A DNA stretch of 64,000 bases from assembly GCA_949825025.1 (NCBI GenBank), contig OX463785.1:4691979-4755978 (forward strand), in the 5' to 3' direction. Positions 8,481 through 63,682 of this stretch are shown one piece after another. Position 1 is the first letter of the stretch. Each line of letters starts with the position of its first letter. The DNA comes from Siphlonurus alternatus. Taxonomy: Eukaryota > Arthropoda > Insecta > Ephemeroptera > Siphlonuridae. The translations under genes were made by a program, and so were the position numbers. Below the pieces are notes generated by a model, which did no database searches, was not told the DNA's origin, and saw only the letters and a list, made by a program, of their open reading frames with translations.

Positions 8481-8574
8481 ATACACAGTCAAGAAGTTCA
8501 AGAAGTTCATTGACAAAAGCTGAAGCGTCCATCCTGACTGAGGTTTCCACGTTTCTCTCAGTCGCAGGCAAATG

Positions 8575-18801: not shown

Positions 18802-19120
18802 AATGGAGTATTGACCTCAATTTTTTTATTGCAGAAATTAATAGAGCGTGCAAGGTTATGCTACCCTGATTTTTTTCAGATTTTTTAGAGCCCGGGAACT
18901 ATTTTTAACAAATTATTGAAAGTTCTTTTCGTGACGTCACGAGACGCCACTCCTTAAGAAAAAGATAGGACTTGCCACCGTGTGACGTCACAAAAAGAAT
19001 TTTTAATAATTTTTTAAAAATACTTCCCGGACTCTAAAAAATCTGAAAAAAAGCAAGGTAGCATAACTTTGCACGCTCTATCCATTTCTGCAATAAAAAA
19101 AATGAGGTCAATACTCCATT
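18802..19120. mobile_element. Palindromic MITE, P family
   Basis: AATGGAGTATTGACCTCAAT at the left and its inverse at the right, with GTGACGTCAC motifs around the centre. Confidence 0.85.
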
Positions 19121-24951: not shown

Positions 24952-25284
24952 CAATGGAGTATTGAACTCATTTTTTTTTATTGCAGAAATGGATAGAGGG
25001 TGCAAATTTATGCTACCCTAAATTTTTTCAGATATTTTTGAGACCGGGAACTATTTTTTTTTAAAAAATTTGAAAATCCTTCTTTTTGTGACGTCACGAG
25101 GCAGCAAGTCCTATCTTTTTCTTAAGAAGCGGCGTCTCCTGACGTCATAAAAAGGACATTCAATAATTATTTAAAAATAGTTCCCGGTCTCAAAAAAATG
25201 TGAAAAAAAAAAAATCAATGTAGCATAAATTTGCACCCTTTATCCATTTCTGCAATAAAAAAAATTGAGGTCGATACTCCATTG
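24952..25284. mobile_element. Palindromic MITE, P family (unit 1)
   Basis: Ends CAATGGAGTA / TACTCCATTG; central GTGACGTCACGAGGC. It lies in protease intron 2. The duplicate is at 30,996-31,328. Confidence 0.85.
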
Positions 25285-30995: not shown

Positions 30996-31328
30996 CAATG
31001 GAGTATTGAACTCATTTTTTTTTATTGCAGAAATGGATAGAGGGTGCAAATTTATGCTACCCTAAATTTTTTCAGATATTTTTGAGACCGGGAACTATTT
31101 TTTTTTAAAAAATTTGAAAATCCTTCTTTTTGTGACGTCACGAGGCAGCAAGTCCTATCTTTTTCTTAAGAAGCGGCGTCTCCTGACGTCATAAAAAGGA
31201 CATTCAATAATTATTTAAAAATAGTTCCCGGTCTCAAAAAAATGTGAAAAAAAAAAAATCAATGTAGCATAAATTTGCACCCTTTATCCATTTCTGCAAT
31301 AAAAAAAATTGAGGTCGATACTCCATTG
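30996..31328. mobile_element. Palindromic MITE, P family (unit 2)
   Basis: Duplicate of 24,952-25,284, produced by the segmental duplication rather than by transposition. Confidence 0.85.
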
Positions 31329-32948: not shown

Positions 32949-33501
32949 GCCTGTAACGTCATCAAATAATTACGTCCTTCGATTTTAATTCCAAATTTTC
33001 ACAGCTGTTACATTGTTGTGCTAATTCTTACGATTGTTATGAAGGTGAGTGACAGTCCAATTTTAACGTCATTTTTATAATAATTTTAACGCTTGTATTT
33101 ATGTTTTGTATTTAGCATTAAATTATATATGCCAGCATAGCAATTGCGTCACTTTTAAAACACGGTTTAGTAAGCTCTCTTTATATTGTTTGATAATCAT
33201 AAAAATTATTTGATCCTCGGCATTGTTGTAAACTAACCTCCAGTTCTCTTCAGGTCATTTTATTTAAAGTTTTATGATGTTCAAACCAAATTATCAACAA
33301 ACTAATTTGTCAAATCTGATTGATTGATTGATTTATATTTTGGGGCAATTGACACATTTTGGTCATGTATGCCCCCAGCGCGGCCTTTAAGAGACCGCAG
33401 ATTTTTGACTGTTTCCCATATGGGATTTTATTTCTTTGTTTATTGTGTCTATGTTTTGATTTTCTTTGTTTTTCTCGTTTCTTTTCTTTGTTTGTTTCTG
33501 T

Positions 33502-36500: not shown

Positions 36501-37194
36501 CTTTATCAAGGCGCCACTTTGGTGCACGCTCTTGTCGTATTTCATTTTCTAACATTTCTGTTACTATTGGGTAGTGGTCACTACCATAGGTGTCATCGTA
36601 TGCTCGCCACTCCAGTTTGGGAGCAAGTCGTGTAGTGCAGATGGTCAAATCAATTGCAGAGTGCGTGCCAGTAGCCATCGTCACATGTGTTGGTTCTCCT
36701 GTGTTGAGGATGGTGAGGCTCTCGATGTTCACAAACTGCTCAAGTATACGCCCTCGCTGGTCGATGCGGTCACATCCCCAGACGGTGTTGTGAGCGTTCA
36801 AATCTCCCAAGAGAATGTACGGCTTGGGGAGTTGGTGCACAAGGGCAACGATCTGCTGTTGTGTTACATTTACATTCGGTGGAAGATATACGTTGCAGAT
36901 GCATACCTTGTGAGGAATGAGCATCTGCACCGCAACTACTTGAAGTTCCGTGACTAGTGGCACTTCCTGCGAGAAGGCGTCATTGCGAGCAAATGTCGCG
37001 ACTCCCCCACAGGCAATGTCGCCATCCACGTAGTCTTTTCTGTAGCATGTGTAATTCTTCAATTTTGCATCTTGTGTAGGCTTAAGCCTAGTTTCCTGTA
37101 AACAAATGGCAAGAGGGTTATTCTGAGACATGAGAAGGCTCAGGCCTTCACGTTGTCTGTAAAAACCGTTCATATTCCATTGAAGGGTAGCCAT
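33502..37194 (-). CDS. I-element ORF2: APE endonuclease / reverse transcriptase / RNase H (I-3)
   Basis: 1,230 residues. Residues 1-225 form an APE endonuclease (CLQETRL near 33, GDLNAH near 130, SDHYPIV near 204) that nicks target DNA. The reverse transcriptase spans about 455-760: SYRPIALTS, CGFRQHRST, FDMEKAYD, GVPQGSVLS and the catalytic YVDD at 664-667. RNase H spans about 955-1,090, with acidic residues in FTDGS, SEMYAIW, CTDSLS and the GHAGIPGNEAAD box. A C-terminal CATC...H...C motif lies near 1,168. All key residues are present, so the protein could be active. It starts 9 nt after the ORF1 stop, which suggests termination-reinitiation. The variant PRPCVRL separates it from I-1, I-2 and I-8. 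Confidence 0.95.
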   Translation of the reverse strand: MATLQWNMNGFYRQREGLSLLMSQNNPLAICLQETRLKPTQDAKLKNYTCYRKDYVDGDIACGGVATFARNDAFSQEVPLVTELQVVAVQMLIPHKVCICNVYLPPNVNVTQQQIVALVHQLPKPYILLGDLNAHNTVWGCDRIDQRGRILEQFVNIESLTILNTGEPTHVTMATGTHSAIDLTICTTRLAPKLEWRAYDDTYGSDHYPIVTEMLENEIRQERAPKWRLDKADWPRYTEQAQVPWDPTQGIDEMVEAFTNALLAAALDTIPQTNTRPGKIPVPWWTPECKEAIRERRRALRRCKKRPTPENVEWFRICRANARQIIREAKKASWQSYVSSVNSTTPVKEVWDKIRKIDGKSTCMAIPALEVNGVIETTPEAVSNILADTFSSISDPTNYDPAFIPHKDRAESRPPDFSTREDLDYNHPFTMWEMEAALKDAKSSAPGQDQIHIEMLRHLNNQASVQLLQMYNRIWLEGIFPQLWKKAIVIPIYKTGKNKIDPKSYRPIALTSVLCKVMERMVNKRLVWFAEKHDLLSNEQCGFRQHRSTTDNLVKLENEIQNAYLNKEHLVAVSFDMEKAYDTTWRHGILKTLHEWGLRGHMPVFIREFMKDRVFSVRVGNTISDQRAQETGVPQGSVLSVTLFAVAINSIVRNVSHPIRSSLYVDDFIIYCAAKLLRTAQRQLQMCINKLFRWSRSNGFKFSAQKTTVVHFHRLRGVQPEPELQMGGIPIPCSDTVRFLGLIFDSKLSWRPHLRSLKAKCQQPLNLLRVLSGKSYGADRVVLLRLYRALVRSKLDYGAIIYNSARPSYIKTLDPVHNTGLRLATGAFRSSPIESLCAEAGEPPLKSRRDLLTCNYIASLLSKPQHTTFECVFKPKHRNKYLQRHKTTRPLGIRARELLTGDLGIHYLPAVYNQVPSSIAPWKIPRPCVRLDLANNKKDSTDPLLYRGIYSEVIDQYRDYTLVFTDGSKKDDDVGCAFVINNEEHGYCLREQTSVFTSEMYAIWKALEHCLERDDRSIMICTDSLSSLQTIEKTFPKNPLAKKIQDCLYQLANQDKYVSFLWVPGHAGIPGNEAADKAAKRASEKEDWDSEEITSDDFRNSLQLDIQRRWEASWQEVTYDNKLRNIKEMPRAWQTSYRKNRRDEVILARLRIGHTRLTHGHLMEHEASPLCATCAEELTVDHILTDCRHYVEERRTCKMTGSTKEVLANDEEAVQRILEFTTKANLRREL

Positions 37195-37203
37195 TGGAAG
37201 TTC

Positions 37204-38646
37204 TTATGGTTTGGGAGGGGTTTTAGCCCCAACCTTAGTTGCTGTTTGTGTTAACTTTTTCTGACTCTTGCCAGCGTTTGCATCGTATTTCTTTTTGTCC
37301 TCCAGGAATTGTTTCCCGGGTGGTAGTATTGGCTTTCGTTCTGGTTTCTTCGAAGATGTATTAATCGATCCAGAGGTACGAGGGGCCTTTAGTTTGGGTT
37401 CTTGCTGTGCAGCTGGAGCAGAGATTGTTTCTTGCTCTTCTTGCATTTCTGCAGTTTCAGGAGCAATTTGCTCCGCTTTTTTCTGTTCGGAAGAAGTTGA
37501 GGGTTTATCTGTCACCTCTTTAGCTTCCGGTGTCGTGAGGAGCGGCTGCTCTACTCCAGACTGGCTTTCGGTGTCCATGTTTTCAGACTCGCTGAACACG
37601 CGGACTTCTTGGTTTCTGCGGCGTCTTAGACGCTTCTGCTTTCTTTCCTCCTCTTGCTCGGACTCTTGAGATTCTTGAGGGGTTTGGTCAGTTGCCTGAC
37701 GTTTTTTCAGCCTTTGGGTAGATAACACCTGCGTAGGTATCATCTGCTTCTTTGGTTCTTGTTGTTTCTGTTCTTGCTCTATGTTCTTTCCTTGTTGGCG
37801 TTTTCCTTTGAGAACTGCCTTCGCGAAAGTATTCACCAGAGCTGGGGTGCTTTCTCTCAGCTTAGCCTGGGCGGCACGGTAGCTGATTTTGTCCAAGACC
37901 ATGTATTCTTGGATTTTGAGCTCTTCTTTGTTTCGTGGGCAGTTTCTAGACCAAGATACGTGCTTTCCCTTGCAGTTTACACAGCTCTGCTCAGCTGTGC
38001 AGTTGTCTTCATGTATTTTGCTGCCGCACTTGCCGCAGACTTCGTCCACTCTACACACTTTGCTGGTGTGTCCGAATTTCTGGCATTTGTAGCAGCGCAT
38101 AGGATTTGGAATGTAAGCTCGTACCTTCAAGAAAAATCTGGCGATTTGTATCTTTTCCGGCAGAACTGTTTGGTCAAATGTTAGGATGTAGTTCTCGGTG
38201 GGGACCAGTTCAGTGCCCTTACGTTTCTTGATCTGGGTAACTTCAGTTACCTTGTATTCTTTCAGCTCCTCCTTGATGTCCTCCAGTGTTGATTGCATCA
38301 GGCCAGAGCATGAGATTATTCCCTTTGTTTGATTTAGGGAGCGATGTGCCTCGACTGTGACTGAGGTTTCTCCAAGGTTTTTCACTGTTAAGATCTTTCG
38401 GGACTGATCATCCGAGATTGTTTCTACGAGGATGGATCCGTCTTTCAATGTTTGATAGCTTTTGGGTTGGCCAAAAGCTAACATCATATTGCGGTGGAGA
38501 CGGATTGCACACAGCTTATCCAGTCTTTCACCTTGCACATTACATTTTATGGTGAGGTATGTAGGGGCCTCCCTCCCCTCCCTGAGCCGGTTGTCGTGAG
38601 AGAACGTGAGTTCTCGCCACGCTGGTCGCTTGCTCCTCTTCGACAT
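37204..38646 (-). CDS. I-element ORF1: zinc-knuckle nucleic-acid-binding protein (I-3)
   Basis: 480 residues. Three CCHC-type knuckles lie at ~183-240: CYKCQKFGHTSKVC, CGKCGSKIHEDNC and CVNCKGKHVSWSRNC. The basic N-terminus begins MSKRSKRPAW. The last ~200 residues are a Gln/Glu/Lys-rich low-complexity tail. In this family ORF1 coats the RNA to form the transposition particle. The ATG follows CCA and is the first in frame after the 5' UTR. I-3 reads CPRNKEEL where I-4, I-7 and I-8 read CPRYKEEL. Confidence 0.9.
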   Translation of the reverse strand: MSKRSKRPAWRELTFSHDNRLREGREAPTYLTIKCNVQGERLDKLCAIRLHRNMMLAFGQPKSYQTLKDGSILVETISDDQSRKILTVKNLGETSVTVEAHRSLNQTKGIISCSGLMQSTLEDIKEELKEYKVTEVTQIKKRKGTELVPTENYILTFDQTVLPEKIQIARFFLKVRAYIPNPMRCYKCQKFGHTSKVCRVDEVCGKCGSKIHEDNCTAEQSCVNCKGKHVSWSRNCPRNKEELKIQEYMVLDKISYRAAQAKLRESTPALVNTFAKAVLKGKRQQGKNIEQEQKQQEPKKQMIPTQVLSTQRLKKRQATDQTPQESQESEQEEERKQKRLRRRRNQEVRVFSESENMDTESQSGVEQPLLTTPEAKEVTDKPSTSSEQKKAEQIAPETAEMQEEQETISAPAAQQEPKLKAPRTSGSINTSSKKPERKPILPPGKQFLEDKKKYDANAGKSQKKLTQTATKVGAKTPPKP

Positions 38647-39245
38647 TGGAAAAATGGCAAAGAAAGTTGAGAAAGATATATGAACGCTTTATGAGTAGGT
38701 CCACAAATTGTAATCATAAGAAAAAGGGTTGCCGCGCTCACGGCCACGAGGTCATTACTGCCACCAAGGGACCTCCCAAGGTGGAGAGGGGTGCTGTAAA
38801 ATGCCTCGCCCTAGAAGAGGACTCCTGACAACTAGGACTTGAAAACTCTGCTCTCCATGAGCTAACATAAATGCTTCGCCATGGTAAGGATTGCCCAACG
38901 GAGCAAGACACGTACGGGGCTTTGCAGAGCGATTACAGCATCGGAATTGGGGCGGAAAGATGAGTTCTCCAGGTTCTGGTGCATGTCCGGCGTTAACTGA
39001 TCGAGATCAGCGCTCTTGTATCCTCTTGTCGCCGTGTGAATTACGGATCTCGCTTGATTAGGTGGGATAGCCACCCAACTTCCACTGGGATACAACCGTG
39101 CGAGGGCTAGAAGAGAGCCCAAAGAACGGACCGGGTGCTGCCGTACTATTGCCTACTAACATCCCCCACCAACGCAATTCTATGATAGTCCGGGAAGGTT
39201 CCCGGGAAGATTAAAAGGAAGAAAGAGAGAAAAGAGAAAAGGTTT

Positions 39246-39352
39246 GAGCTGCCTGTTAGCACCATGCCTGTCTTTGGCCGAGCAATTGTCCGGCCAAAGG
39301 CAAGCAAAGTGAGCCCCTCCTACCACGACAAGGTCATAGCAGCTCGTGGGAG
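39246..39352 (-). ncRNA. HDV-like ribozyme of I-3, P1 damaged
   Basis: P2, P3, P4 and the CTAA strand are as in I-4, I-7 and I-8. The element begins CTCCCAC instead of CCCCTCCCAT, so only about four P1 pairs remain, and J1/2 has a T-to-C change. Self-cleavage is probably weak or lost. Confidence 0.55.
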
Positions 39353-39441
39353 TTTATTCCAAGCAAACCTAATGTTGAAAGTACAGGCTCCATGTAAAAC
39401 GGAGTATTCCTCATCAGACAACATTCAGTAGCTTGGAAGGG
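39353..39441. other. 89-bp hairpin spacer between I-3 and I-4
   Basis: It is not I-element sequence. TTCCAAGC and AATGTTG at its left face CAACATT and GCTTGGAA at its right, so it folds as an imperfect hairpin. Read on the minus strand it ends in AATAAA directly before I-3. It may be a MITE scrap or filler from the event that truncated I-4. Confidence 0.5.
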
Positions 39442-41019
39442 TCTATGTTCTTTCCTTGTTGGCGTTTTCCTTTGAGAACTGCCTTCGCGAAAGTATTCAC
39501 CAGAGCTGGGGTGCTTTCTCTCAGCTTAGCCTGGGCGGCACGGTAGCTGATTTTGTCCAAGACCATGTATTCTTGGATTTTGAGCTCTTCTTTGTATCGT
39601 GGGCAGTTTCTAGACCAAGATACGTGCTTTCCCTTGCAGTTTACACAGCTCTGCTCAGCTGTGCAGTTGTCTTCATGTATTTTGCTGCCGCACTTGCCGC
39701 AGACTTCGTCCACTCTACACACTTTGCTGGTGTGTCCGAATTTCTGGCATTTGTAGCAGCGCATAGGATTTGGAATGTAAGCTCGTACCTTCAAGAAAAA
39801 TCTGGCGATTTGTATCTTTTCCGGCAGAACTGTTTGGTCAAATGTTAGGATGTAGTTCTCGGTGGGGACCAGTTCAGTGCCCTTACGTTTCTTGATCTGG
39901 GTAACTTCAGTTACCTTGTATTCTTTCAGCTCCTCCTTGATGTCCTCCAGTGTTGATTGCATCAGGCCAGAGCATGAGATTATTCCCTTTGTTTGATTTA
40001 GGGAGCGATGTGCCTCGACTGTGACTGAGGTTTCTCCAAGGTTTTTCACTGTTAAGATCTTTCGGGACTGATCATCCGAGATTGTTTCTACGAGGATGGA
40101 TCCGTCTTTCAATGTTTGATAGCTTTTGGGTTGGCCAAAAGCTAACATCATATTGCGGTGGAGACGGATTGCACACAGCTTATCCAGTCTTTCACCTTGC
40201 ACATTACATTTTATGGTGAGGTATGTAGGGGCCTCCCTCCCCTCCCTGAGCCGGTTGTCGTGAGAGAACGTGAGTTCTCGCCACGCTGGTCGCTTGCTCC
40301 TCTTCGACATTGGAAAAATGGCAAAGAAAGTTAAGAAAGATATATGAACGCTTTATGAGTAGGTCCACAAATTGTAATCATAAGAAAAAGGGTTGCCGCG
40401 CTCACGGCCACGAGGTCATTACTGCCACCAAGGGACCTCCCGAGGTGGAGAGGGGTGCTGTAAAATGCCTCGCCCTAGAAGAGGACTCCTGACAACTAGG
40501 ACTTGAAAACTCTGCTCTCCATGAGCTAACATAAATGCTTCGCCATGGTAAGGATTGCCCAACGGAGCAAGACACGTACGGGGCTTTGCAGAGCGATTAC
40601 AGCATCGGAATTGGGGCGGAAAGATGAGTTCTCCAGGTTCTGGTGCATGTCCGGCGTTAACTGATCGAGATCAGCGCTCTTGTATCCTCTTGTCGCCGTG
40701 TGAATTACGGATCTCGCTTGATTAGGTGGGATAGCCACCCAACTTCCACTGGGATACAACCGTGCGAGGGCTAGAAGAGAGCCCAAAGAACGGACCGGGT
40801 GCTGCCGTACTATTGCCTACTAACATCCCCTACCAACGCAATTCTATGATAGTCCGGGAAGGTTCCCGGGAAGATTAAAAGGGAGAAAGAGAGAAAAGAG
40901 AAAAGGTTTGAGCTGCCTGTTAGCACCATGCCTGTCTTTGGCCGAGCAATTGTCCGGTCAAAGGCAAGCAAAGTGAGCCCCTCCTACCACGACAAGGTCA
41001 TAGCAGCTCATGGGAGGGG
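39442..41019 (-). mobile_element. I-element copy I-4, 3'-truncated (5' UTR and ORF1 N-terminus)
   Basis: It has an intact 5' end (CCCCTCCCATG at 41,019), the full 5' UTR and ORF1 codons 1 to ~288 (40,310-39,442, including all three zinc knuckles). It breaks off at 39,442, and the frame runs ~9 codons into the spacer. ORF2 and the 3' end are absent. Loss of the 3' part is unusual for a non-LTR element and implies a later deletion or recombination. The 5' end lies 10 bp beyond the lectin B AATAAA. Confidence 0.9.
40910..41019 (-). ncRNA. HDV-like self-cleaving ribozyme at the I-4 5' end
   Basis: Same fold as described for I-8 (51,800-51,909), with complete P1 CCCCTCC / GGAGGGG. P1 starts exactly at the element boundary, the expected cleavage point. 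It is transcribed in the same sense as lectin B, just downstream of its polyA signal. Confidence 0.7.
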
Positions 41020-51132: not shown

Positions 51133-51799
51133 GGAATATAGGATCTCATTATTAATATTATATTAGTATTATATAGTATATATGATAATTACATCATAGC
51201 CTTATTCAATTTTTAGGAAGAATTTATATAAGGATGTACTGGATGTATAAGTTGGTCACAAAATTAAATAATTACAATGCATTATCTAAATATACAATAA
51301 TAATTTCATTCAGGTGTTCCATTAACAACATAATATTTGAAGAGTAAATAATAATTAGATAATTACTGACATCTAAATTTAAACTTTAATATTAAATAAA
51401 TAAAATTATTTTCGTGGTACACACACCACAATTATTACCTCTGTCTAATTTATTTTTATTACCACGCAGTCTATGGAAGTGTGGTGAAAATTTTATATAG
51501 CCGACCCTTTGAGATGGGTTGACAAAGTGCTCTCTATAATACTCAACAAAAATTACAAACATTATCTTTATAATTAAAAAAAATGCAGTTGCAGCAACTC
51601 AGTTCATGAACACACAATTCTTCCTAAGAAGAAGTAATAGTTTTACTTTATTAGAAATAAATGAAACTTTTAATGTAATGATCTGATTAATTCTTAAGAA
51701 TTGTCATTTTATCTGAATATTAGTCGTAATTTATGGTATAACTTTTTTTAATTTTATTTTTTAATATTTGAGTAAACAAAATAGTATTAAACCCTGAAT
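51133..51799. other. AT-rich stretch without recognisable gene
   Basis: Nothing recognisable between the partial MITE and the start of I-8. Confidence 0.5.
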
Positions 51800-51909
51800 C
51801 CCCTCCCATGAGCTGCTATGACCTTGTCGTGGTAGGAGGGGCTCACTTTGCTTGCCTTTGACCGGACAATTGCTCGGCCAAAGACAGGCATGGTGCTAAC
51901 AGGCAGCTC
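51800..51909 (+). ncRNA. HDV-like self-cleaving ribozyme at the I-8 5' end
   Basis: The pairings can be drawn directly. P1 is CCCCTCC (51,800-51,806) with GGAGGGG (51,835-51,841). P2 is GAGCTGC (51,810-51,816) with GCAGCTC (51,903-51,909). P3 is ACC (51,821) with GGT (51,831), around the 7-nt loop TTGTCGT. P4 is a long hairpin from CAC at 51,844 to GTG at 51,893-51,895. The J4/2 strand CTAACAG follows P4 at once, placing C51,896 where the HDV catalytic cytosine lies. P1 begins on the first base of the element. HDV-like ribozymes at 5' ends are known in R2, RTE and L1Tc elements, where they free the element RNA from upstream transcripts. Assigned from base pairing only. Confidence 0.75.
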
Positions 51910-52148
51910 AAACCTTTTCTCTTTTCTCTCTTTCTCCCTTTTAATCTTCCCGGGAACCTTCCCGGATTGATTGATTGATTTATATTTTGGGGCAATTGAC
52001 ACATTTTGGTCATGTATGCCCCCAGCGCGGCCTTTAAGAGACCGCAGATTTTTGACTGTTTCCCATATGGGATTTTATTTCTTTGTTTATTGTGTCTATG
52101 TTTTGATTTTCTTTGTTTTTCTCGTTTCTTTTCTTTGTTTGTTTCTGT

Positions 52149-55100
52149 TTACAGCTCTCTTCGTAGGTTCACCTTAGTGGTGAACTCTAAGATGCGCTGC
52201 ACTGCTTCCTCGTCGTTTGCGAGAACCTCTTTAGTGGAGCCTGTCATTTTGCAGGTCCTTCTTTCTTCCACGTAGTGGCGACAGTCCGTGAGGATGTGGT
52301 CCACTGTCAGTTCTTCGGCACAGGTTGCACACAGAGGAGGGGCTTCGTGCTCCATGAGGTGGCCGTGTGTCAGCCTGGTGTGTCCGATGCGCAGTCTGGC
52401 GAGGATGACCTCGTCCCTGCGGTTCTTTCTGTAGCTGGTCTGCCATGCGCGTGGCATTTCCTTGATGTTCCGCAGTTTGTTGTCATATGTGACCTCTTGC
52501 CACGATGCTTCCCATCTCCTTTGGATGTCCAGTTGTAGCGAGTTGCGGAAGTCGTCTGATGTGATCTCCTCCGAGTCCCAGTCCTCTTTCTCAGAGGCTC
52601 GCTTTGCGGCTTTGTCTGCAGCCTCATTTCCAGGGATTCCAGCATGGCCGGGTACCCAGAGGAAAGAGACGTATTTGTCCTGGTTCGCCAACTGGTAGAG
52701 ACAATCTTGGATTTTCTTTGCCAGTGGATTCTTGGGGAATGTTTTCTCAATTGTCTGGAGGCTACTGAGGGAGTCGGTACAGATCATAATGGATCTGTCG
52801 TCTCTTTCCAAACAGTGCTCGAGAGCTTTCCAGATGGCGTACATTTCTGATGTGAATACACTTGTTTGCTCACGCAGGCAGTATCCATGTTCTTCGTTGT
52901 TGATGACGAAGGCACAACCAACGTCATCGTCCTTCTTTGAGCCGTCGGTGAAGACCAGAGTGTAGTCTCTGTACTGGTCTATCACTTCTGAGTAAATGCC
53001 CCTGTAGAGTAAGGGGTCTGTACTGTCTTTTTTGTTGTTTGCCAGGTCAAGTCTCACGCATGGGCGTGGAATTTTCCACGGTGCAATCGAGCTTGGTACC
53101 TGGTTGTACACAGCGGGGAGATAGTGGATTCCCAGGTCTCCTGTGAGAAGTTCCCTCGCCCGGATGCCCAGAGGCCTTGTTGTTTTATGTCTTTGGAGGT
53201 ATTTATTCCTGTGCTTTGGTTTGAAGACGCACTCGAATGTTGTGTGCTGTGGCTTGCTAAGAAGACTCGCGATGTAGTTGCAAGTTAGCAAGTCTCGCCT
53301 GCTCTTGAGTGGTGGTTCTCCAGCCTCTGCACAGAGGCTTTCTATTGGGCTAGAGCGAAATGCTCCTGTGGCCAGCCTCAGTCCAGTGTTGTGGACTGGG
53401 TCAAGCGTTTTGATATATGACGGTCTAGCTGAGTTGTAGATTATTGCTCCATAGTCTAGCTTGGAACGAACCAGGGCCCGATAGAGTCGTAAGAGTACCA
53501 CTCGGTCAGCACCATAGGACTTTCCACTCAAGACACGGAGAAGGTTAAGTGGCTGTTGGCATTTTGCCTTCAGGCTTCTAAGATGGGGCCTCCACGACAA
53601 TTTGCTGTCGAAAATGAGTCCCAGAAAGCGGACAGTATCAGAGCATGGGATCGGAATTCCTCCCATCTGGAGCTCAGGCTCTGGTTGCACACCACGCAGT
53701 CTGTGGAAGTGGACCACAGTGGTTTTCTGCGCAGAGAATTTGAATCCGTTGGATCTGCTCCACCTGAACAGTTTGTTGATGCACATTTGAAGTTGTCGTT
53801 GAGCCGTCCTCAGAAGTTTTGCTGCACAGTAGATGATGAAGTCATCCACATACAGCGAACTCCTGATGGGGTGACTGACATTGCGAACGATGCTGTTGAT
53901 CGCCACAGCGAACAATGTTACACTCAGCACCGATCCTTGGGGGACGCCAGTCTCCTGGGCTCGTTGATCAGAGATGGTGTTACCAACACGTACTGAAAAG
54001 ACTCGGTCCTTCATGAACTCTCGGATGAAGACTGGCATGTGACCGCGCAGTCCCCATTCATGGAGGGTCTTGAGTATTCCGTGTCTCCAGGTCGTGTCGT
54101 AAGCCTTTTCCATGTCGAAAGACACGGCTACGAGGTGTTCTTTGTTGAGGTAGGCGTTCTGGATCTCGTTTTCGAGTTTCACCAGGTTGTCGGTAGTAGA
54201 GCGATGTTGTCTGAACCCACATTGCTCATTGGAGAGAAGGTCATGTTTTTCAGCGAACCACACCAGGCGCTTGTTGACCATTCTTTCCATCACTTTGCAC
54301 AGGACAGAAGTGAGGGCGATTGGGCGGTAGCTCTTCGGATCGATTTTGTTTTTGCCGGTTTTGTAGATCGGGATGACGATGGCTTTTTTCCACAGTTGTG
54401 GGAAAATGCCTTCGAGCCAGATTCGGTTGTACATCTGGAGAAGTTGAACAGACGCTTGATTGTTCAGGTGTCGTAACATCTCTATGTGGATTTGGTCTTG
54501 GCCAGGAGCTGAGCTCTTGGCATCTTTGAGTGCTGCCTCCATCTCCCACATGGTGAAAGGATGATTGTAGTCCAGGTCTTCTCTTGTGGAGAAGTCGGGT
54601 GGTCTACTCTCTGCCCTGTCCTTGTGAGGGATGAACGCTGGGTCATAGTTAGTTGGGTCTGAGATTGAGGAGAATGTGTCTGCCAGAATGTTAGACACTG
54701 CCTCTGGTGTTGTCTCTATTACTCCATTGACTTCAAGAGCAGGGATGGCCATGCATGTGCTCTTTCCATCAATTTTGCGGATCTTGTCCCAGACTTCCTT
54801 GACAGGAGTCGTGGAGTTGACTGAAGATACGTAGCTTTGCCAGGAGGCCTTCTTTGCCTCCCTGATAATTTGTCTTGCGTTGGCTCGGCATATTCGGAAC
54901 CATTCGACATTTTCTGGTGTTGGGCGTTTCTTGCATCGTCGGAGCGCTCTCCTACGCTCTCGAATCGCCTCTTTGCATTCTGGTGTCCACCAGGGCACTG
55001 GTATTTTCCCAGGCCTGGTGTTTGTCTGTGGGATGGTGTCCAAAGCTGCCGCCAAAAGTGCGTTGGTAAATGCTTCCACCATTTCGTCTATTCCCTGAGT

Positions 55101-55841
55101 GGGATCCCACGGGACCTGGGCTTGCTCAGTGTATCTGGGCCAGTCAGCTTTATCAAGGCGCCACTTTGGTGCACGCTCTTGTCGTATTTCATTTTCTAAC
55201 ATTTCTGTTACTATTGGGTAGTGGTCACTACCATAGGTGTCATCGTATGCTCGCCACTCCAGTTGGGGAGCAAGTCGTGTAGTGCAGATGGTCAAATCAA
55301 TTGCAGAGTGCGTGCCAGTAGCCATCGTCACATGTGTTGGTTCTCCTGTGTTGAGGATGGTGAGGCTCTCGATGTTCACAAACTGCTCAAGTATACGCCC
55401 TCGCTGGTCGATGCGGTCACATCCCCAGACGGTGTTGTGAGCGTTCAAATCTCCCAAGAGGATGTACGGCTTGGGGAGTTGGTGCACAAGGGCAACGATC
55501 TGCTGTTGTGTTACATTTACATTCGGTGGAAGATATACGTTGCAGATGCATACCTTGTGAGGAATGAGCATCTGCACCGCAACTACTTGAAGTTCCGTGA
55601 CTAGTGGCACTTCCTGCGAGAAGGCGTCATTGCGAGCAAATGTCGCGACTCCCCCACAGGCAATGTCGCCATCCACGTAGTCTTTTCTGTAGCATGTGTA
55701 ATTCTTCAATTTTGCATCTTGTGTAGGCTTAAGCCTAGTTTCCTGTAAGCAAATGGCAAGAGGGTTATTCTGAGACATGAGAAGGCTCAGGCCTTCACGT
55801 TGTCTGTAAAAACCGTTCATATTCCATTGAAGGGTAGCCAT
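52149..55841 (-). CDS. I-element ORF2: endonuclease / RT / RNase H (I-7)
   Basis: 1,230 residues, uninterrupted. It has the same endonuclease (QET, GDLNAH, SDHYPIV), reverse transcriptase (YVDD) and RNase H motifs as the I-3 copy. Differences seen are few: Q for K in LAPQLEW, APPLCATC for ASPLCATC, and V for A in TTKVNLRREL. The ATG is 9 nt after the ORF1 stop. The product would nick target DNA, prime reverse transcription and remove the RNA strand. Confidence 0.95.
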   Translation of the reverse strand: MATLQWNMNGFYRQREGLSLLMSQNNPLAICLQETRLKPTQDAKLKNYTCYRKDYVDGDIACGGVATFARNDAFSQEVPLVTELQVVAVQMLIPHKVCICNVYLPPNVNVTQQQIVALVHQLPKPYILLGDLNAHNTVWGCDRIDQRGRILEQFVNIESLTILNTGEPTHVTMATGTHSAIDLTICTTRLAPQLEWRAYDDTYGSDHYPIVTEMLENEIRQERAPKWRLDKADWPRYTEQAQVPWDPTQGIDEMVEAFTNALLAAALDTIPQTNTRPGKIPVPWWTPECKEAIRERRRALRRCKKRPTPENVEWFRICRANARQIIREAKKASWQSYVSSVNSTTPVKEVWDKIRKIDGKSTCMAIPALEVNGVIETTPEAVSNILADTFSSISDPTNYDPAFIPHKDRAESRPPDFSTREDLDYNHPFTMWEMEAALKDAKSSAPGQDQIHIEMLRHLNNQASVQLLQMYNRIWLEGIFPQLWKKAIVIPIYKTGKNKIDPKSYRPIALTSVLCKVMERMVNKRLVWFAEKHDLLSNEQCGFRQHRSTTDNLVKLENEIQNAYLNKEHLVAVSFDMEKAYDTTWRHGILKTLHEWGLRGHMPVFIREFMKDRVFSVRVGNTISDQRAQETGVPQGSVLSVTLFAVAINSIVRNVSHPIRSSLYVDDFIIYCAAKLLRTAQRQLQMCINKLFRWSRSNGFKFSAQKTTVVHFHRLRGVQPEPELQMGGIPIPCSDTVRFLGLIFDSKLSWRPHLRSLKAKCQQPLNLLRVLSGKSYGADRVVLLRLYRALVRSKLDYGAIIYNSARPSYIKTLDPVHNTGLRLATGAFRSSPIESLCAEAGEPPLKSRRDLLTCNYIASLLSKPQHTTFECVFKPKHRNKYLQRHKTTRPLGIRARELLTGDLGIHYLPAVYNQVPSSIAPWKIPRPCVRLDLANNKKDSTDPLLYRGIYSEVIDQYRDYTLVFTDGSKKDDDVGCAFVINNEEHGYCLREQTSVFTSEMYAIWKALEHCLERDDRSIMICTDSLSSLQTIEKTFPKNPLAKKIQDCLYQLANQDKYVSFLWVPGHAGIPGNEAADKAAKRASEKEDWDSEEITSDDFRNSLQLDIQRRWEASWQEVTYDNKLRNIKEMPRAWQTSYRKNRRDEVILARLRIGHTRLTHGHLMEHEAPPLCATCAEELTVDHILTDCRHYVEERRTCKMTGSTKEVLANDEEAVQRILEFTTKVNLRREL

Positions 55842-55850
55842 TGGAAGTTC

Positions 55851-57293
55851 TTATGGTTTGGGAGGGGTTTTAGCCCCAACCTTAGTTGCTGTTTGTGTTA
55901 ACTTTTTCTGACTCTTGCCAGCGTTTGCATCGTATTTCTTTTTGTCCTCCAGGAATTGTTTCCCGGGTGGTAGTATTGGCTTTCGTTCTGGTTTTTTCGA
56001 AGATGTATTAATCGATCCAGAGGTACGAGGGGCCTTTAGTTTGGGTTCTTGCTGTGCGGCTGGAGCAGAGATTGTTTCTTGCTCTTCTTGCATTTCTGCA
56101 GTTTCAGGAGCAATTTGCTCCGCTTTTTTCTGTTCGGAAGAAGTTGAGGGTTTATCTGTCACCTCTTTAGCTTCCGGTGTCGTGAGGAGCGGCTGCTCTA
56201 CTCCAGACTGGCTTTCGGTGTCCATGTTTTCAGACTCGCTGAACACGCGGACTTCTTGGTTTCTGCGGCGTCTTAGACGCTTCTGCTTTCTTTCCTCCTC
56301 TTGCTCGGACTCTTGAGATTCTTGAGGGGTTTGGTCAGTTGCCTGACGTTTTTTCAGCCTTTGGGTAGATAACACCTGCGTAGGTATCATCTGCTTCTTT
56401 GGTTCTTGTTGTTTCTGTTCTTGCTCTATGTTCTTTCCTTGTTGGCGTTTTCCTTTGAGAACTGCCTTCGCGAAAGTATTCACCAGAGCTGGGGTGCTTT
56501 CTCTCAGCTTAGCCTGGGCGGCACGGTAGCTGATTTTGTCCAAGACCATGTATTCTTGGATTTTGAGCTCTTCTTTGTATCGTGGGCAGTTTCTAGACCA
56601 AGATACGTGCTTTCCCTTGCAGTTTACACAGCTCTGCTCAGCTGTGCAGTTGTCTTCATGTATTTTGCTGCCGCACTTGCCGCAGACTTCGTCCACTCTA
56701 CACACTTTGCTGGTGTGTCCGAATTTCTGGCATTTGTAGCAGCGCATAGGATTTGGAATGTAAGCTCGTACCTTCAAGAAAAATCTGGCGATTTGTATCT
56801 TTTCCGGCAGAACTGTTTGGTCAAATGTTAGGATGTAGTTCTCGGTGGGGACCAGTTCAGTGCCCTTACGTTTCTTGATCTGGGTAACTTCAGTTACCTT
56901 GTATTCTTTCAGCTCCTCCTTGATGTCCTCCAGTGTTGATTGCATCAGGCCAGAGCATGAGATTAATCCCTTTGTTTGATTTAGGGAGCGATGTGCCTCG
57001 ACTGTGACTGAGGTTTCTCCAAGGTTTTTCACTGTTAAGATCTTTCGAGACTGATCATCCGAGATTGTTTCTACGAGGATGGATCCGTCTTTTAATGTTT
57101 GATAGCTTTTGGGTTGGCCAAAAGCTAACATCATATTGCGGTGGAGACGGATTGCACACAGCTTATCCAGTCTTTCACCTTGCACATTACATTTTATGGT
57201 GAGGTATGTAGGGGCCTCCCTCCCCTCCCTGAGCCGGTTGTCGTGAGAGAACGTGAGTTCTCGCCACGCTGGTCGCTTGCTCCTCTTCGACAT
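55851..57293 (-). CDS. I-element ORF1: zinc-knuckle protein (I-7)
   Basis: 480 residues with three CCHC knuckles and the Gln/Glu/Lys-rich tail. One difference from I-3 is Leu for Ile in NQTKGLISCSG. Complete and probably functional. Confidence 0.9.
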   Translation of the reverse strand: MSKRSKRPAWRELTFSHDNRLREGREAPTYLTIKCNVQGERLDKLCAIRLHRNMMLAFGQPKSYQTLKDGSILVETISDDQSRKILTVKNLGETSVTVEAHRSLNQTKGLISCSGLMQSTLEDIKEELKEYKVTEVTQIKKRKGTELVPTENYILTFDQTVLPEKIQIARFFLKVRAYIPNPMRCYKCQKFGHTSKVCRVDEVCGKCGSKIHEDNCTAEQSCVNCKGKHVSWSRNCPRYKEELKIQEYMVLDKISYRAAQAKLRESTPALVNTFAKAVLKGKRQQGKNIEQEQKQQEPKKQMIPTQVLSTQRLKKRQATDQTPQESQESEQEEERKQKRLRRRRNQEVRVFSESENMDTESQSGVEQPLLTTPEAKEVTDKPSTSSEQKKAEQIAPETAEMQEEQETISAPAAQQEPKLKAPRTSGSINTSSKKPERKPILPPGKQFLEDKKKYDANAGKSQKKLTQTATKVGAKTPPKP

Positions 57294-57892
57294 TGGAAAA
57301 ATGGCAAAGAAAGTTGAGAAAGATATATGAACGCTTTATGAGTAGGTCCACAAATTGTAATCATAAGAAAAAGGGTTGCCGCGCTCACGGCCACGAGGTC
57401 ATTACTGCCACCAAGGGACCTCCCAAGGTGGAGAGGGGTGCTGTAAAATGCCTCGCCCTAGAAGAGGACTCCTGACAACTAGGACTTGAATACTCTGCTC
57501 TCCATGAGCTAACATAAATGCTTCGCCATGGTAAGGATTGCCCAACGGAGCAAGACACGTACGGGGCTTTGCAGAGCGATTACAGCATCGGAATTGGGGC
57601 GGAAAGATGAGTTCTCCAGGTTCTGGTGCATGTCCGGCGTTAACTGATCGAGATCAGCGCTCTTGTATCCTCTTGTCGCCGTGTGAATTACGGATCTCGC
57701 TTGATTAGGTGGGATAGCCACCCAACTTCCACTGGGATACAACCGTGCGAGGGCTAGAAGAGAGCCCAAAGAACGGACCGGGTGCTGCCGTACTATTGCC
57801 TACTAACATCCCCCACCAACGCAATTCTATGATAGTCCGGGAAGGTTCCCGGGAAGATTAAAAGGGAGAAAGAGAGAAAAGAGAAAAGGTTT

Positions 57893-58002
57893 GAGCTGCC
57901 TGTTAGCACCATGCCTGTCTTTGGCCGAGCAATTGTCCGGCCAAAGGCAAGCAAAGTGAGCCCCTCCTACCACGACAAGGTCATAGCAGCTCATGGGAGG
58001 GG
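57893..58002 (-). ncRNA. HDV-like self-cleaving ribozyme at the I-7 5' end
   Basis: Same P1, P2, P3, P4 and CTAA elements as I-8. P4 here is better paired: GGCCGG replaces the GACCGG of I-8 and I-4, restoring a Watson-Crick pair. That change preserves the stem. Confidence 0.72.
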
Positions 58003-58557
58003 GAACCTTCCCGGACTATCATAGAATTGCGTTGGTGGGGGATGTTAGTAGGCAATAGTACGGCAGCACCCGGCCCGTTCTTTGGGCTCTCTTCTAGCCC
58101 TCGCACGGTTGTATCCCAGTGGAAGTTGGGTGGCTATCCCACCTAATCAAGCGAGATCCGTAATTCACACGGCGACAAGAGGATATAAGAGCGCTGATCT
58201 CGATCAGTTAACGCCGGACATGCACCAGAACCTGGAGAACTCATCTCTCCGCCCCAATTCCGATGCTGTAATCGCTCTGCAAAGCCCCGTACGTGTCTTG
58301 CTCCGTTGGGCAATCCTTACCATGGCGAAGCATTTATGTTAGCTCATGGAGAGCAGAGTTTTCAAGTCCTAGTTGTCAGGAGTCCTCTTCTAGGGCGAGG
58401 CATTTTACAGCACCCCTCTCCACCTTGGGAGGTCCCTTGGTGGCAGTAATGACCTCGTGGCCGTGAGCGCGGCAACCCTTTTTCTTATGATTACAATTTG
58501 TGGACCTACTCATAAAGCGTTCATATATCTTTCTTAACTTTCTTTGCCATTTTTCCA

Positions 58558-60000
58558 ATGTCGAAGAGGAGCAAGCGACCAGCGTGGCGAGAACTCACGT
58601 TCTCTCACGACAACCGGCTCAGGGAGGGGAGGGAGGCCCCTACATACCTCACCATAAAATGTAATGTGCAAGGTGAAAGATTGGATAAGCTGTGTGCAAT
58701 CCGTCTCCACCGCAATATGATGTTAGCTTTTGGCCAACCCAAAAGCTATCAAACATTGAAAGACGGATCCATCCTCGTAGAAACAATCTCGGATGATCAG
58801 TCCCGAAAGATCTTAACAGTGAAAAACCTTGGAGAAACCTCAGTCACAGTCGAGGCACATCGCTCCCTAAATCAAACAAAGGGAATAATCTCATGCTCTG
58901 GCCTGATGCAATCAACACTGGAGGACATCAAGGAGGAGCTGAAAGAATACAAGGTAACTGAAGTTACCCAGATCAAGAAACGTAAGGGCACTGAACTGGT
59001 CCCCACCGAGAACTACATCCTAACATTTGACCAAACAGTTCTGCCGGAAAAGATACAAATCGCCAGATTTTTCTTGAAGGTACGAGCTTACATTCCAAAT
59101 CCTATGCGCTGCTACAAATGCCAGAAATTCGGACACACCAGCAAAGTGTGTAGAGTGGACGAAGTCTGCGGCAAGTGCGGCAGCAAAATACATGAAGACA
59201 ACTGCACAGCTGAGCAGAGCTGTGTAAACTGCAAGGGAAAGCACGTATCTTGGTCTAGAAACTGCCCACGATACAAAGAAGAGCTCAAAATCCAAGAATA
59301 CATGGTCTTGGACAAAATCAGCTACCGTGCCGCCCAGGCTAAGCTGAGAGAAAGCACCCCAGCTCTGGTGAATACTTTCGCGAAGGCAGTTCTCAAAGGA
59401 AAACGCCAACAAGGAAAGAACATAGAGCAAGAACAGATACAACAAGAACCAAAGAAGCAGATGATTCCTACGCAGGTGTTATCTACCCAAAGGCTGAAAA
59501 AACGTCAGGCATCTGACCAAACCCCTCAAGAATCTCAAGAGTCCGAGCAAGAGGAGGAAAGAAAGCAGAAGCGTCTAAGACGCCGCAGAAACCAAGAAGT
59601 CCGCGTGTTCAGCGAGTCTGAAAACATGGACACCGAAAGCCAGTCTGGAGTAGAGCAGCCGCTCCTCACGACACCGGAAGCTAAAGAGGTGACAGATAAA
59701 CCCTCAACTTCTTCCGAACAGAAAAAAGCGGAGCAAATTGCTCCTGAAACTGCAGAAATGCAAGAAGAGCAAGAAACAATCTCTGCTCCAGCTGCACAGC
59801 AAGAACCCAAACTAAAGGCCCCTCGTACCTCTGGATCGATTAATACATCTTCGAAGAAACCAGAACGAAAGCCAATACTACCACCCGGGAAACAATTCCT
59901 GGAGGACAAAAAGAAATACGATGCAAACGCTGGCAAGAGTCAGAAAAAGTTAACACAAACAGCAACTAAGGTTGGGGCTAAAACCCCTCCCAAACCATAA
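58558..60000 (+). CDS. I-element ORF1: zinc-knuckle protein (I-8)
   Basis: 480 residues. Same organisation as the I-3 and I-7 copies, with small differences (QEQIQQEP for QEQKQQEP, RQASDQ for RQATDQ). The insertion of I-7 in the 5' UTR separates it from the element's 5' end by 6 kb, so expression is likely lost. Confidence 0.9.
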   Translation: MSKRSKRPAWRELTFSHDNRLREGREAPTYLTIKCNVQGERLDKLCAIRLHRNMMLAFGQPKSYQTLKDGSILVETISDDQSRKILTVKNLGETSVTVEAHRSLNQTKGIISCSGLMQSTLEDIKEELKEYKVTEVTQIKKRKGTELVPTENYILTFDQTVLPEKIQIARFFLKVRAYIPNPMRCYKCQKFGHTSKVCRVDEVCGKCGSKIHEDNCTAEQSCVNCKGKHVSWSRNCPRYKEELKIQEYMVLDKISYRAAQAKLRESTPALVNTFAKAVLKGKRQQGKNIEQEQIQQEPKKQMIPTQVLSTQRLKKRQASDQTPQESQESEQEEERKQKRLRRRRNQEVRVFSESENMDTESQSGVEQPLLTTPEAKEVTDKPSTSSEQKKAEQIAPETAEMQEEQETISAPAAQQEPKLKAPRTSGSINTSSKKPERKPILPPGKQFLEDKKKYDANAGKSQKKLTQTATKVGAKTPPKP

Positions 60001-60009
60001 GAACTTCCA

Positions 60010-63000
60010 ATGGCTACCCTTCAATGGAATATGAACGGTTTTTACAGACAACGTGAAGGCCTGAGCCTTCTCATGTCTCAGAATAACCCTCTTGCCATTT
60101 GCTTACAGGAAACTAGGCTTAAGCCTACACAAGATGCAAAATTGAAGAATTACACATGCTACAGAAAAGACTACGTGGATGGCGACATTGCCTGTGGGGG
60201 AGTCGCGACATTTGCTCGCAATGACGCCTTCTCGCAGGAAGTGCCACTAGCCACGGAACTTCAAGTAGTTGCGGTGCAGATGCTCATTCCTCACAAGGTA
60301 TGCATCTGCAACGTATATCTTCCACCGAATGTAAATGTAACACAACAGCAGATCGTTGCCCTTGTGCACCAACTCCCCAAGCCGTACATTCTCTTGGGAG
60401 ATTTGAACGCTCACAACACCGTCTGGGGATGTGACCGCATCGACCAGCGAGGGCGTATACTTGAGCAGTTTGTGAACATCGAGAGCCTCACCATCCTCAA
60501 CACAGGAGAACCAACACATGTGACGATGGCTACTGGCACGCACTCTGCAATTGATTTGACCATCTGCACTACACGACTTGCTCCCCAACTGGAGTGGCGA
60601 GCATACGATGACACCTATGGTAGTGACCACTACCCAATAGTAACAGAAATGTTAGAAAATGAAATACGACAAGAGCGTGCACCAAAGTGGCGCCTTGATA
60701 AAGCTGACTGGCCCAGATACACTGAGCAAGCCCAGGTCCCGTGGGATCCCACTCAGGGAATAGACGAAATGGTGGAAGCATTTACCAACGCACTTTTGGC
60801 TGCAGCTTTGGACACCATCCCACAGACAAACACCAGGCCTGGGAAAATACCAGTGCCCTGGTGGACACCAGAATGCAAAGAGGCGATTCGAGAGCGTAGG
60901 AGAGCGCTCCGACGATGCAAGAAACGCCCAACACCAGAAAATGTCGAATGGTTCCGAATATGCCGAGCCAACGCAAGACAAATTATCAGGGAGGCAAAGA
61001 AGGCCTCCTGGCAAAGCTACGTATCTTCAGTCAACTCCACGACTCCTGTCAAGGAAGTCTGGGACAAGATCCGCAAAATTGATGGAAAGAGCACATGCAT
61101 GGCCATCCCTGCTCTTGAAGTCAATGGAGTAATAGAGACAACACCAGAGGCAGTGTCTAACATTCTGGCAGACACATTCTCCTCAATCTCAGACCCAACT
61201 AACTATGACCCAGCATTCATCCCTCACAAGGACAGGGCAGAGAGTAGACCACCCGACTTCTCCACAAGAGAAGACCTGGACTACAATCATCCTTTCACCA
61301 TGTGGGAGATGGAGGCAGCACTCAAAGATGCCAAGAGCTCAGCTCCTGGCCAAGACCAAATCCACATAGAGATGTTACGACACCTGAACAATCAAGCGTC
61401 TGTTCAACTTCTCCAGATGTACAACCGAATCTGGCTCGAAGGCATTTTCCCACAACTGTGGAAAAAAGCCATCGTCATCCCGATCTACAAAACCGGCAAA
61501 AACAAAATCGATCCGAAGAGCTACCGCCCAATCGCCCTCACTTCTGTCCTGTGCAAAGTGATGGAAAGAATGGTCAACAAGCGCCTGGTGTGGTTCGCTG
61601 AGAAACATGACCTTCTCTCCAATGAGCAATGTGGGTTCAGACAACATCGCTCTACTACCGACAACCTGGTGAAACTCGAAAACGAGATCCAGAACGCCTA
61701 CCTCAACAAAGAACACCTCGTAGCCGTGTCTTTCGACATGGAAAAGGCTTACGACACGACCTGGAGACACGGAATACTCAAGACCCTCCATGAATGGGGA
61801 CTGCGCGGTCACATGCCAGTCTTCATCCGAGAGTTCATGAAGGACCGAGTCTTTTCAGTACGTGTTGGTAACACCATCTCTGATCAACGAGCCCAGGAGA
61901 CTGGCGTCCCCCAAGGATCGGTGCTGAGTGTAACATTGTTCGCTGTGGCGATCAACAGCATCGTTCGCAATGTCAGTCACCCCATCAGGAGTTCGCTGTA
62001 TGTGGATGACTTCATCATCTACTGCGCAGCAAAACTTCTGAGGGCGGCTCAACGACAACTTCAAATGTGCATCAACAAACTGTTCAGGTGGAGCAGATCC
62101 AACGGATTCAAATTCTCTGCGCAGAAAACCACTGTGGTCCACTTCCACAGACTGCGTGGTGTGCAACCAGAGCCTGAGCTCCAGATGGGAGGAATTCCGA
62201 TCCCATGCTCTGATACTGTCCGCTTTCTGGGACTCATTTTCGACAGCAAATTGTCGTGGAGGCCCCATCTTAGAAGCCTGAAGGCAAAATGCCAACAGCC
62301 ACTTAACCTTCTCCGTGTCTTGAGTGGAAAGTCCTATGGTGCTGACCGAGTGGTACTCTTACGACTCTATCGGGCCCTGGTTCGTTCCAAGCTAGACTAT
62401 GGAGCAATAATCTACAACTCAGCTAGACCGTCATATATCAAAACGCTTGACCCAGTCCACAACACTGGACTGAGGCTGGCCACAGGAGCATTTCGCTCTA
62501 GCCCAATAGAAAGCCTCTGTGCAGAGGCTGGAGAACCACCACTCAAGAGCAGGCGAGACTTGCTAACTTGCAACTACATCGCGAGTCTTCTTAGCAAGCC
62601 ACAGCACACAACATTCGAGTGCGTCTTCAAACCAAAGCACAGGAATAAATACCTCCAAAGACATAAAACAACAAGGCCTCTGGGCATCCGGGCGAGGGAA
62701 CTTCTCACAGGAGACCTGGGAATCCACTATCTCCCCGCTGTGTACAACCAGGTACCAAGCTCGATTGCACCGTGGAAAATTCCACGCCCACGCGTGAGAC
62801 TTGACCTGGCAAACAACAAAAAAGACAGTACAGACCCCTTACTCTACAGGGGCATTTACTCAGAAGTGATAGACCAGTACAGAGACTACACTCTGGTCTT
62901 CACCGACGGCTCAAAGAAGGACGATGACGTTGGTTGTGCCTTCGTCATCAACAACGAAGAACATGGATACTGCCTGCGTGAGCAAACAAGTGTATTCACA

Positions 63001-63682
63001 TCAGAAATGTACGCCATCTGGAAAGCTCTCGAGCACTGTTTGGAAAGAGACGACAGATCCATTATGATCTGTACCGACTCCCTCAGTAGCCTCCAGACAA
63101 TTGAGAAAACATTCCCCAAGAATCCACTGGCAAAGAAAATCCAAGATTGTCTCTACCAGTTGGCGAACCAGGACAAATACGTCTCTTTCCTCTGGGTACC
63201 CGGCCATGCTGGAATCCCTGGAAATGAGGCTGCAGACAAAGCCGCAAAGCGAGCCTCTGAGAAAGAGGACTGGGACTCGGAGGAGATCACATCAGACGAC
63301 TTCCGCAACTCGCTACAACTGGACATCAAAAGGAGATGGGAAGCATCGTGGCAAGAGGTCACATATGACAACAAACTGCGGAACATCAAGGAAATGCCAC
63401 GCGCATGGCAGACCAGCTACAGAAAGAACCGCAGGGACGAGGTCATCCTCGCCAGACTGCGCATCGGACACACCAGGCTGACACACGGCCACCTCATGGA
63501 GCACGAAGCCCCTCCTCTGTGTGCAACCTGTGCCGAAGAACTGACAGTGGACCACATCCTCACGGACTGTCGCCACTACGTGGAAGAAAGAAGGACCTGC
63601 AAAATGACAGGCTCCACTAAAGAGGTTCTCGCAAACGACGAGGAAGCAGTGCAGCGCATCTTAGAGTTCACCACTAAGGCGA
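60010..63682 (+). CDS. I-element ORF2 (I-8), last codons replaced by I-9
   Basis: All catalytic motifs are present: QETRL, GDLNAH, SDHYPIV, FDMEKAYD, YVDD, FTDGS, GHAGIPGNEAAD and CATC. After TTKA the frame passes into the inverted 3' end of I-9 and stays open to 63,897, adding ~70 unrelated residues rich in Phe and Leu. The missing part is only the final six or so residues, so enzymatic domains are untouched. Confidence 0.9.

Follow-up and report, generated by a model that had tools for sequence, protein, structure and literature searches.

In PMC3774820, HDV-like ribozymes are described at the 5' junction of R4, Dong, Baggins, L1Tc and RTE elements, and their occurrence in R2, RTE and L1Tc, mentioned in an earlier sequence-only reading of the DNA studied here, is borne out by that source together with PMC4035085. 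PMC3774820 also reports a conserved U-G reverse wobble pair in the L3 loop of HDV-like ribozymes, and PMC4908430 places cleavage by the HDV-like fold at the first base of P1. For the ribozyme drz-Agam-2-1, the latter also describes a J1/2 spacer that is needed and a paired J1/2 domain that speeds cleavage. How LINEs that lack a fixed target acquire a precise 5' end is understood only in part.

The window, by which we mean the whole stretch of 64,000 nt analysed here from the mayfly Siphlonurus alternatus (contig OX463785.1), carries a LINE of which I-8 is a full-length copy (51966..58002, minus strand), running from the ribozyme to an (AATC)n tail. Self-comparison splits another copy, I-4 (plus strand), into a 5' end at 51800..51965 and a remainder at 58003-63682, past I-8, so that I-8 is an insertion within I-4, flanked by a target-site duplication of 12 bp. 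This duplication, GAACCTTCCCGG, can be read beside the 3' end of I-8 (51954..51965, plus strand) and again touching base 1 of its ribozyme (58003..58014, plus strand). An ORF1 with CCHC knuckles, together with an ORF2 carrying endonuclease, reverse transcriptase and RNase H domains, is the layout that marks the I group. The window element has this layout: the ORF2 of I-8 (52149..55850, minus strand, 1233 aa from stop to stop) matches the three domains, and CCHC zinc-knuckle motifs are recognized by eye in its ORF1 (55851..57335, minus strand, 494 aa from stop to stop), Pfam matches to PRE_C2HC and zf-CCHC lying below cut-off. The putative ribozyme heads an autonomous element that encodes an endonuclease and a reverse transcriptase. 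The family is apparently recent, given that its window copies are about 99.5-99.7% alike over long stretches in self-comparison and have clear target-site duplications.

The putative HDV-like ribozyme of I-4 occupies 51800..51909 (plus strand), as judged from its helices, from covariation and from a strict descriptor. P1 pairs CCCCUCC with GGAGGGG (51800-51806/51835-51841), P2 pairs GAGCUGC with GCAGCUC (51810-51816/51903-51909) and P3 pairs ACC with GGU (51821-51823/51831-51833). J1/2 is CAU (51807-51809), L3 is UUGUCGU (51824-51830), J2/3 is the 4-nt UAUG, and a single A lies between the 3' strands of P3 and P1. A J2/3 of 4 nt and a single base from P3 to P1 are unusual for HDV-like ribozymes. 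J1.1/4 (CU, 51842-51843) leads into a long, imperfect P4 (51844-51854/51885-51895 plus a distal part, the whole spanning 51844-51895), after which comes J4/2 (CUAACAG, 51896-51902). The presumed catalytic cytosine, C97 of the 110 nt, is the first base 3' of P4 (51896, in C-U-A-A). The sequence-only reading had drawn this double pseudoknot with CTAA directly after P4; P1, P2, P3, P4 and L3 were all found where it had put them, and the sequence does read CTAA from C51896. The HDV-type features are thus present, namely P1, P2, P3 and P4 with P1 and P2 crossing, a U and a G in L3, and a C 3' of P4, and the HDV-like interpretation is supported by the fit of helix order, loop residues, presumed catalytic C and base 1. 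Three window copies begin alike, as had been claimed, at 51800 (plus strand), 58002 (minus strand; the ribozyme of I-8, 57893..58002) and 41019 (minus strand; 40910..41019), and differ only by A or G at the position equivalent to 51861.

A fourth core, at 39345 on the minus strand, is absent from the sequence-only reading. It belongs to a longer form of the ribozyme (39246..39441, minus strand, 196 nt) heading an element that self-comparison places at 33318-39352 plus a leader to 39441 (minus strand). Just before P2 (5' strand 39345-39339) this copy reads AAACUCC, an incomplete P1 with GGAGGGG. Further upstream, CCCUUCC (39441-39435) pairs 7/7 with GGAGGGG, with one G-U, and the J1/2 between it and P2 is a structured domain of 89 nt (39434-39346). 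Eleven long-form sites occur in the host genome, the window's fourth copy included, and they share about 85-98 nt of upstream sequence, 96.5-100% identical to L038 or to the window copy, beyond which their flanks differ within 250 nt, L035 and L036 being alike further out. The possibility that the 11 AAACUCC copies are segmental duplicates with a broken P1 was ruled out, the 250-nt flanks sharing only these ~85-98 nt. The leader starts with CCCUUCC at 8 sites and with UCCUUCC at L037, L041 and L043; in all 11 it pairs 7/7 with GGAGGGG across a J1/2 of 89 nt. As the common sequence stops at about CCCUUCC or UCCUUCC and the flanks differ beyond it, the 5' end of the long-form element follows the 5' strand of P1. 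Folded alone, the 89-nt J1/2 gives -22.5 kcal/mol, with a helix adjoining P1; for the whole long form the free minimum (MFE) lies at -78.2 kcal/mol, far below a ribozyme-like fold without P2 at -66.0 kcal/mol. A Rfam search of 39200-39500 at E up to 10 gave three weak matches far below gathering scores, which we take as chance.

The 5' ends of other copies agree with this. In nine copies the target-site duplication adjoins base 1 of P1, and in three it ends one base earlier. Among short-form copies, the duplication runs up to the base before C1 in I-8, L003, L004, L006, L033 and L011, and one extra base precedes base 1 in L010, L012 and L013, the duplication of L012 being less certain because its flank recurs about 480 bases further on. 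The flanks of nine short copies of the window element are all unrelated, no two of them matching within 250 nt. Clean duplications directly before CCCUUCC were found in three of the eight long-form 3' regions read (L038, L040 and L042); L037 and L041 have a tail and no clean duplication, and L034, L035 and L039 lack a tail where one was expected. In the window itself, the long-form element (33318-39441) starts exactly where the element beginning at 41019 (39442-41019, minus strand), which ends after about 1.58 kb, breaks off; the former seems to be inserted in the latter, but we saw no target-site duplication beside the 3' end of the former.

In the host genome (455.7 Mb), a 115-nt query found at least 40 scored places, 77-100% identical among the matches listed, and two core patterns found 73 and 74 places, compared with 0 and 1 for reversed-pattern controls. 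We accepted 72 core places and read 66 of them, the six left out all belonging to family 4. Two one-mismatch places (C7:21417197 and C9:8361869) were taken as chance, and a third place, with three mismatches (L093), gave no core with the pattern script. The whole core is present at 65 of the 66 sites read, L043 being cut. P1 is paired 7/7 at 55/65 sites (45, plus ten long-form sites in the upstream register), P2 is paired 7/7 at 46/65 and P4 is paired in at least 10/11 pairs at 58/65. J4/2 starts with CUAA or CCAA at 64/65 sites and with CUUA at the other, and J1/2 measures 3-5 nt in most short copies.

Covariation was examined in a core alignment of 26 distinct trimmed rows (728 cells, 28 pairs) with registers set by hand; it has no separate long-form row, which in the correct P1 register equals that of L007. 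Pairing is seen in 92.6% of the 728 cells of this alignment; the figure for shuffles is 84.5%, with 0/500 of them reaching the observed level, and only 35-55% of cells pair when the partners are slid. Two-sided changes occur at 14/28 pairs (P1 3/7, P2 3/7, P4 8/11, P3 0/3), a number again reached by 0/500 shuffles; these counts are of dependent events, as the rows are paralogues from one genome and many are close kin. The number of pair types was reached by 6/500 shuffles. P1 changes from C-G to U-A at position 3 in L087/88, at position 4 in seven rows of family 4 (position 3 being a C-U mismatch in four of these) and at position 7 in L086; position 3 is unpaired in 6/26 rows, and the pattern that retrieved the rows with the clearest changes in P1 itself requires part of the P1 3' strand. 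P2 reads GAGUUGC/GCAACUC in L015 and AUGCUGC/GCAGUAU in L086, and its position 2 turns from A-U to U-A in family 4, where the rest of P2 is weak (at most 5/7 pairs). P3 is invariant, and therefore uninformative. U22 and G27 of L3, C64 and A67 are invariant in 26/26 rows, C64 being the column equivalent to C51896. A second alignment, of 14 whole ribozymes made with MAFFT, gave 97.7% of cells paired (reached by 0/500 shuffles), its three two-sided pairs being reached by 90/500 shuffles and its number of pair types by 233/500. In this alignment, and in the rows used for P1.1, the long-form row keeps the AAACUCC register for P1. A possible P1.1 between L3 and J1.1/4, a helix of one or two pairs in HDV-like ribozymes, would here be a single G-C pair, GC in 26/27 rows and GU in one, without covariation; its neighbour is U-U in 27/27 rows, and a slide by +2 pairs better. 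The sequence-only reading had made covariation in P1, P2 and P4 a point on which its proposal should stand or fall, and in the core alignment the outcome is favourable for all three, within paralogous families of one genome.

The sequences are compatible with the fold, covary in P1, P2 and P4 and have invariant L3 and J4/2 residues, and the 5' junctions lie at base 1 in both forms. It is very probable, on the strength of this sequence comparison, that the 110 nt at the head of this I-group LINE are an HDV-like self-cleaving ribozyme that would release the RNA at base 1. The element would be transcribed by read-through from host sequence upstream, and the nascent RNA would fold into P1, P3, P4 and the P2 pseudoknot. 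C97 (51896) would then act on the phosphodiester just 5' of P1 base 1, presumably co-transcriptionally, and the released RNA would start exactly at the element's first base. This RNA could serve both as mRNA and as template for reverse transcription, in which case each new copy would begin at base 1 and inherit the ribozyme. The copies of the second form, with the same core and an 89-nt J1/2 domain, start at the moved base 1.

The head of the element could instead be a conserved, non-catalytic 5'-UTR structure resembling an HDV ribozyme, such as an aid to translation start, a reverse-transcriptase binding site or promoter DNA. Conservation alone is uninformative here, since the 5' UTR is as conserved as the ribozyme (83.7% over its next 526 aligned nt and 81.8% over the ribozyme, between the two LINE families), and Pr77 of trypanosomatids is described as both promoter and ribozyme. 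Against a structure without cleavage stand the invariance of the HDV-specific loop residues and of the C after P4, the two-sided changes in three of the seven P2 pairs, and the position of the element's 5' end, which coincides with base 1 of P1 in nine copies checked by their target-site duplications and in the long form has shifted together with the P1 5' strand. We regard such a structure as improbable.

More improbable still is a nested fold, with P1, an extended hairpin (positions 15-23 with 27-35 of the 110 nt) and P4, and with no P2, pseudoknot or cleavage. It is the MFE structure of the short form (-44.5 kcal/mol), and its hairpin is paired in 94.0% of cells of the core alignment. P1, P3 and P4 alone give -35.9 kcal/mol and the P2 duplex -11.4 kcal/mol, and by this rough addition the two folds are of similar stability, too close to be separated by energy without a pseudoknot model. 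The alignment speaks against the nested fold, in that none of the 9 pairs of its hairpin shows a two-sided change and the inner A-U pair is broken in 14/26 rows. It also leaves the P2 strands unpaired with each other, yet these pair in 90.1% of cells and show the two-sided changes at 3/7 pairs mentioned above.

That inverted repeats of a repetitive 5' UTR merely happen to lie in this order, to which the 351 matches of a loose double-pseudoknot descriptor in 268 shuffled windows (~1.3 per window) might point, can practically be dismissed in view of the strict descriptor, the shuffles and the covariation. The loose descriptor was rejected as a test for its poor selectivity, and for the same reason the double-pseudoknot drawing alone proves little. 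The strict descriptor adds a U at L3 position 1, a G at the last but one L3 position and the closing of P4 next to the C, and was set with the sequence already known. It has 3 matches in the window, the three short copies, and 7 in 1,156 dinucleotide-shuffled windows, 6 of which have any; it misses the fourth copy because it limits J1/2 to 0-8 nt. Of the descriptor or covariance search that the sequence-only reading had proposed, the descriptor part came out in its favour and the covariance part did not, as Rfam gave no family match for the whole window at gathering threshold or for 51700-52000 at E up to 10. Because the Rfam models miss this ribozyme, the covariation set could be used to build a covariance model for it. 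The two core patterns had 0 matches in viral_contigs. In genome_contigs the short core matched 22 places, all with bacterial titles, which we take as chance rather than as relatives, the best covariance-model score in this pre-selected set being 19.2 bits (rough E 0.015, L066).

The HDV-like ribozyme occurs in several settings across the host genome, and many of the 72 accepted core matches lie away from the head of any LINE. Family 1 is the I element of the window, with short and long forms, and family 2 is a sister LINE built in the same way, its long matches to family 1 showing 82.5-83.3% identity in ORF2 and 53-54% in ORF1. No open stretch of 250 aa was found in 11 loci of family 3, and none of 200 aa in 13 loci of family 4. 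Satellite arrays follow the ribozyme in the four loci of these families that were run, of 345 bp in L016 and L018 and of 161 bp in L068 and L077. L080, L086 and L087/L088 are diverged stand-alone ribozyme copies with compensatory changes. The 1.35, 1.35 and 2.45 kb downstream of L080, L086 and L087 have no LINE similarity in DNA and, at the protein level, only one 18-residue match (E 0.34); L088 was read over 401 bases only. A single ribozyme lineage may have spread through two autonomous LINE families, of which one has both forms of J1/2, as well as through satellite-bearing repeats and to stand-alone places; L080, L086 and L087/L088, keeping the fold by compensatory changes in P1, P2 and P4, would then be independently maintained, possibly domesticated, self-cleaving ribozymes. 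We consider this tentative reading rather unlikely.

Several other features of these repeats were observed. In L068, the 161-bp array flanks a block in inverted orientation. An A run, followed in places by 1-3 T, stands just before base 1 in L016-L025, L028, L067-L079 and L089-L092 (families 3 and 4); such a junction could have arisen by a template jump from the 5' end of the ribozyme onto a poly(A) tail. A short, 5'-truncated LINE 3' end, reading GGGCATACATG...CCAACCAACC, is found just downstream of the ribozyme in L018 (from base 299) and also in L019-L025 and L028, and in L018 it is flanked by a 14-bp direct repeat, AACTTGAATTTTTG, recognized by eye. In L104 (1902-1937) and L105 (1958-1993), 36 nt resemble a part of the long-form J1/2 at 86%; in each case a family-3 ribozyme follows several hundred bases downstream.

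The window holds further repeats. Between 21229 and 34913, copies of a 6,044-bp unit that are 99.9% identical follow one another head to tail; the unit contains the final 1.6 kb of the LINE together with other sequence. Repeats of ~320 bp (9331-9652, 15672-15993, 18802-19120, 24952-25284 and 30996-31328) also match their own reverse complement, in a foldback-like manner. There is in addition a tandem repeat with a period near 130 bp (2555-4210) and, on the minus strand, a fragment of another reverse transcriptase just under the Pfam cut-off (7663-8613). Among the ORF2 relatives listed, the first to bear an animal name comes from a mayfly and is a partial protein (49% across 35% of the query). 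A full-length relative (P0012, 40%) is filed under Pantoea sp. Taur and is probably animal DNA in a bacterial assembly. ORF2 alone found no relative in viral_contigs, where an ORF2 profile gave one short RNase H match (L106).

Among the titles and abstract openings listed from the literature, with most subscription journals outside this scope, no report on the element or the core was recognised. HDV-like ribozymes heading LINEs are a kind already known, of which this one would be a well-supported new case. The two forms provide a natural test, as the 5' strand of P1 lies 86 nt further upstream behind the J1/2 insertion and the element's 5' end is found there too, and with J1/2 of 3 nt and 89 nt they are a ready pair for studying the effect of J1/2 on cleavage.

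Among known systems, R2 resembles the mayfly element in having an HDV-type fold at its 5' end with a conserved U and G in L3, and in the release of the element from a co-transcript, the R2 of Drosophila being cleaved at the exact 5' junction, as would be the case here (PMC3774820). As described there, however, R2 sits at one site in the 28S rDNA and in most analysed species is cleaved 9-36 nt upstream, inside the rRNA, whereas the flanks here are varied and the 5' end is base 1 or one off. RTE, R4/Dong and Baggins1, which are other elements likened to this one by description, have 5'-terminal ribozymes cleaving at the element's 5' end according to the same source. The L1Tc/ingi elements of trypanosomatids, with their Pr77 hallmark, likewise have a ribozyme at the 5' end of a LINE and in non-autonomous relatives; according to PMC4035085 it measures ~77-94 nt, compared with 110 or 196 nt and a long P4 in the mayfly. 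The long form resembles by description drz-Agam-2-1 of a mosquito, which belongs to the same fold class and has a large structured J1/2 (PMC4908430). The mayfly ribozyme differs from it in that one element family has J1/2 of both 3 nt and 89 nt, and in that the J1/2 helix of the long form is separated from P2 by about 15 nt.
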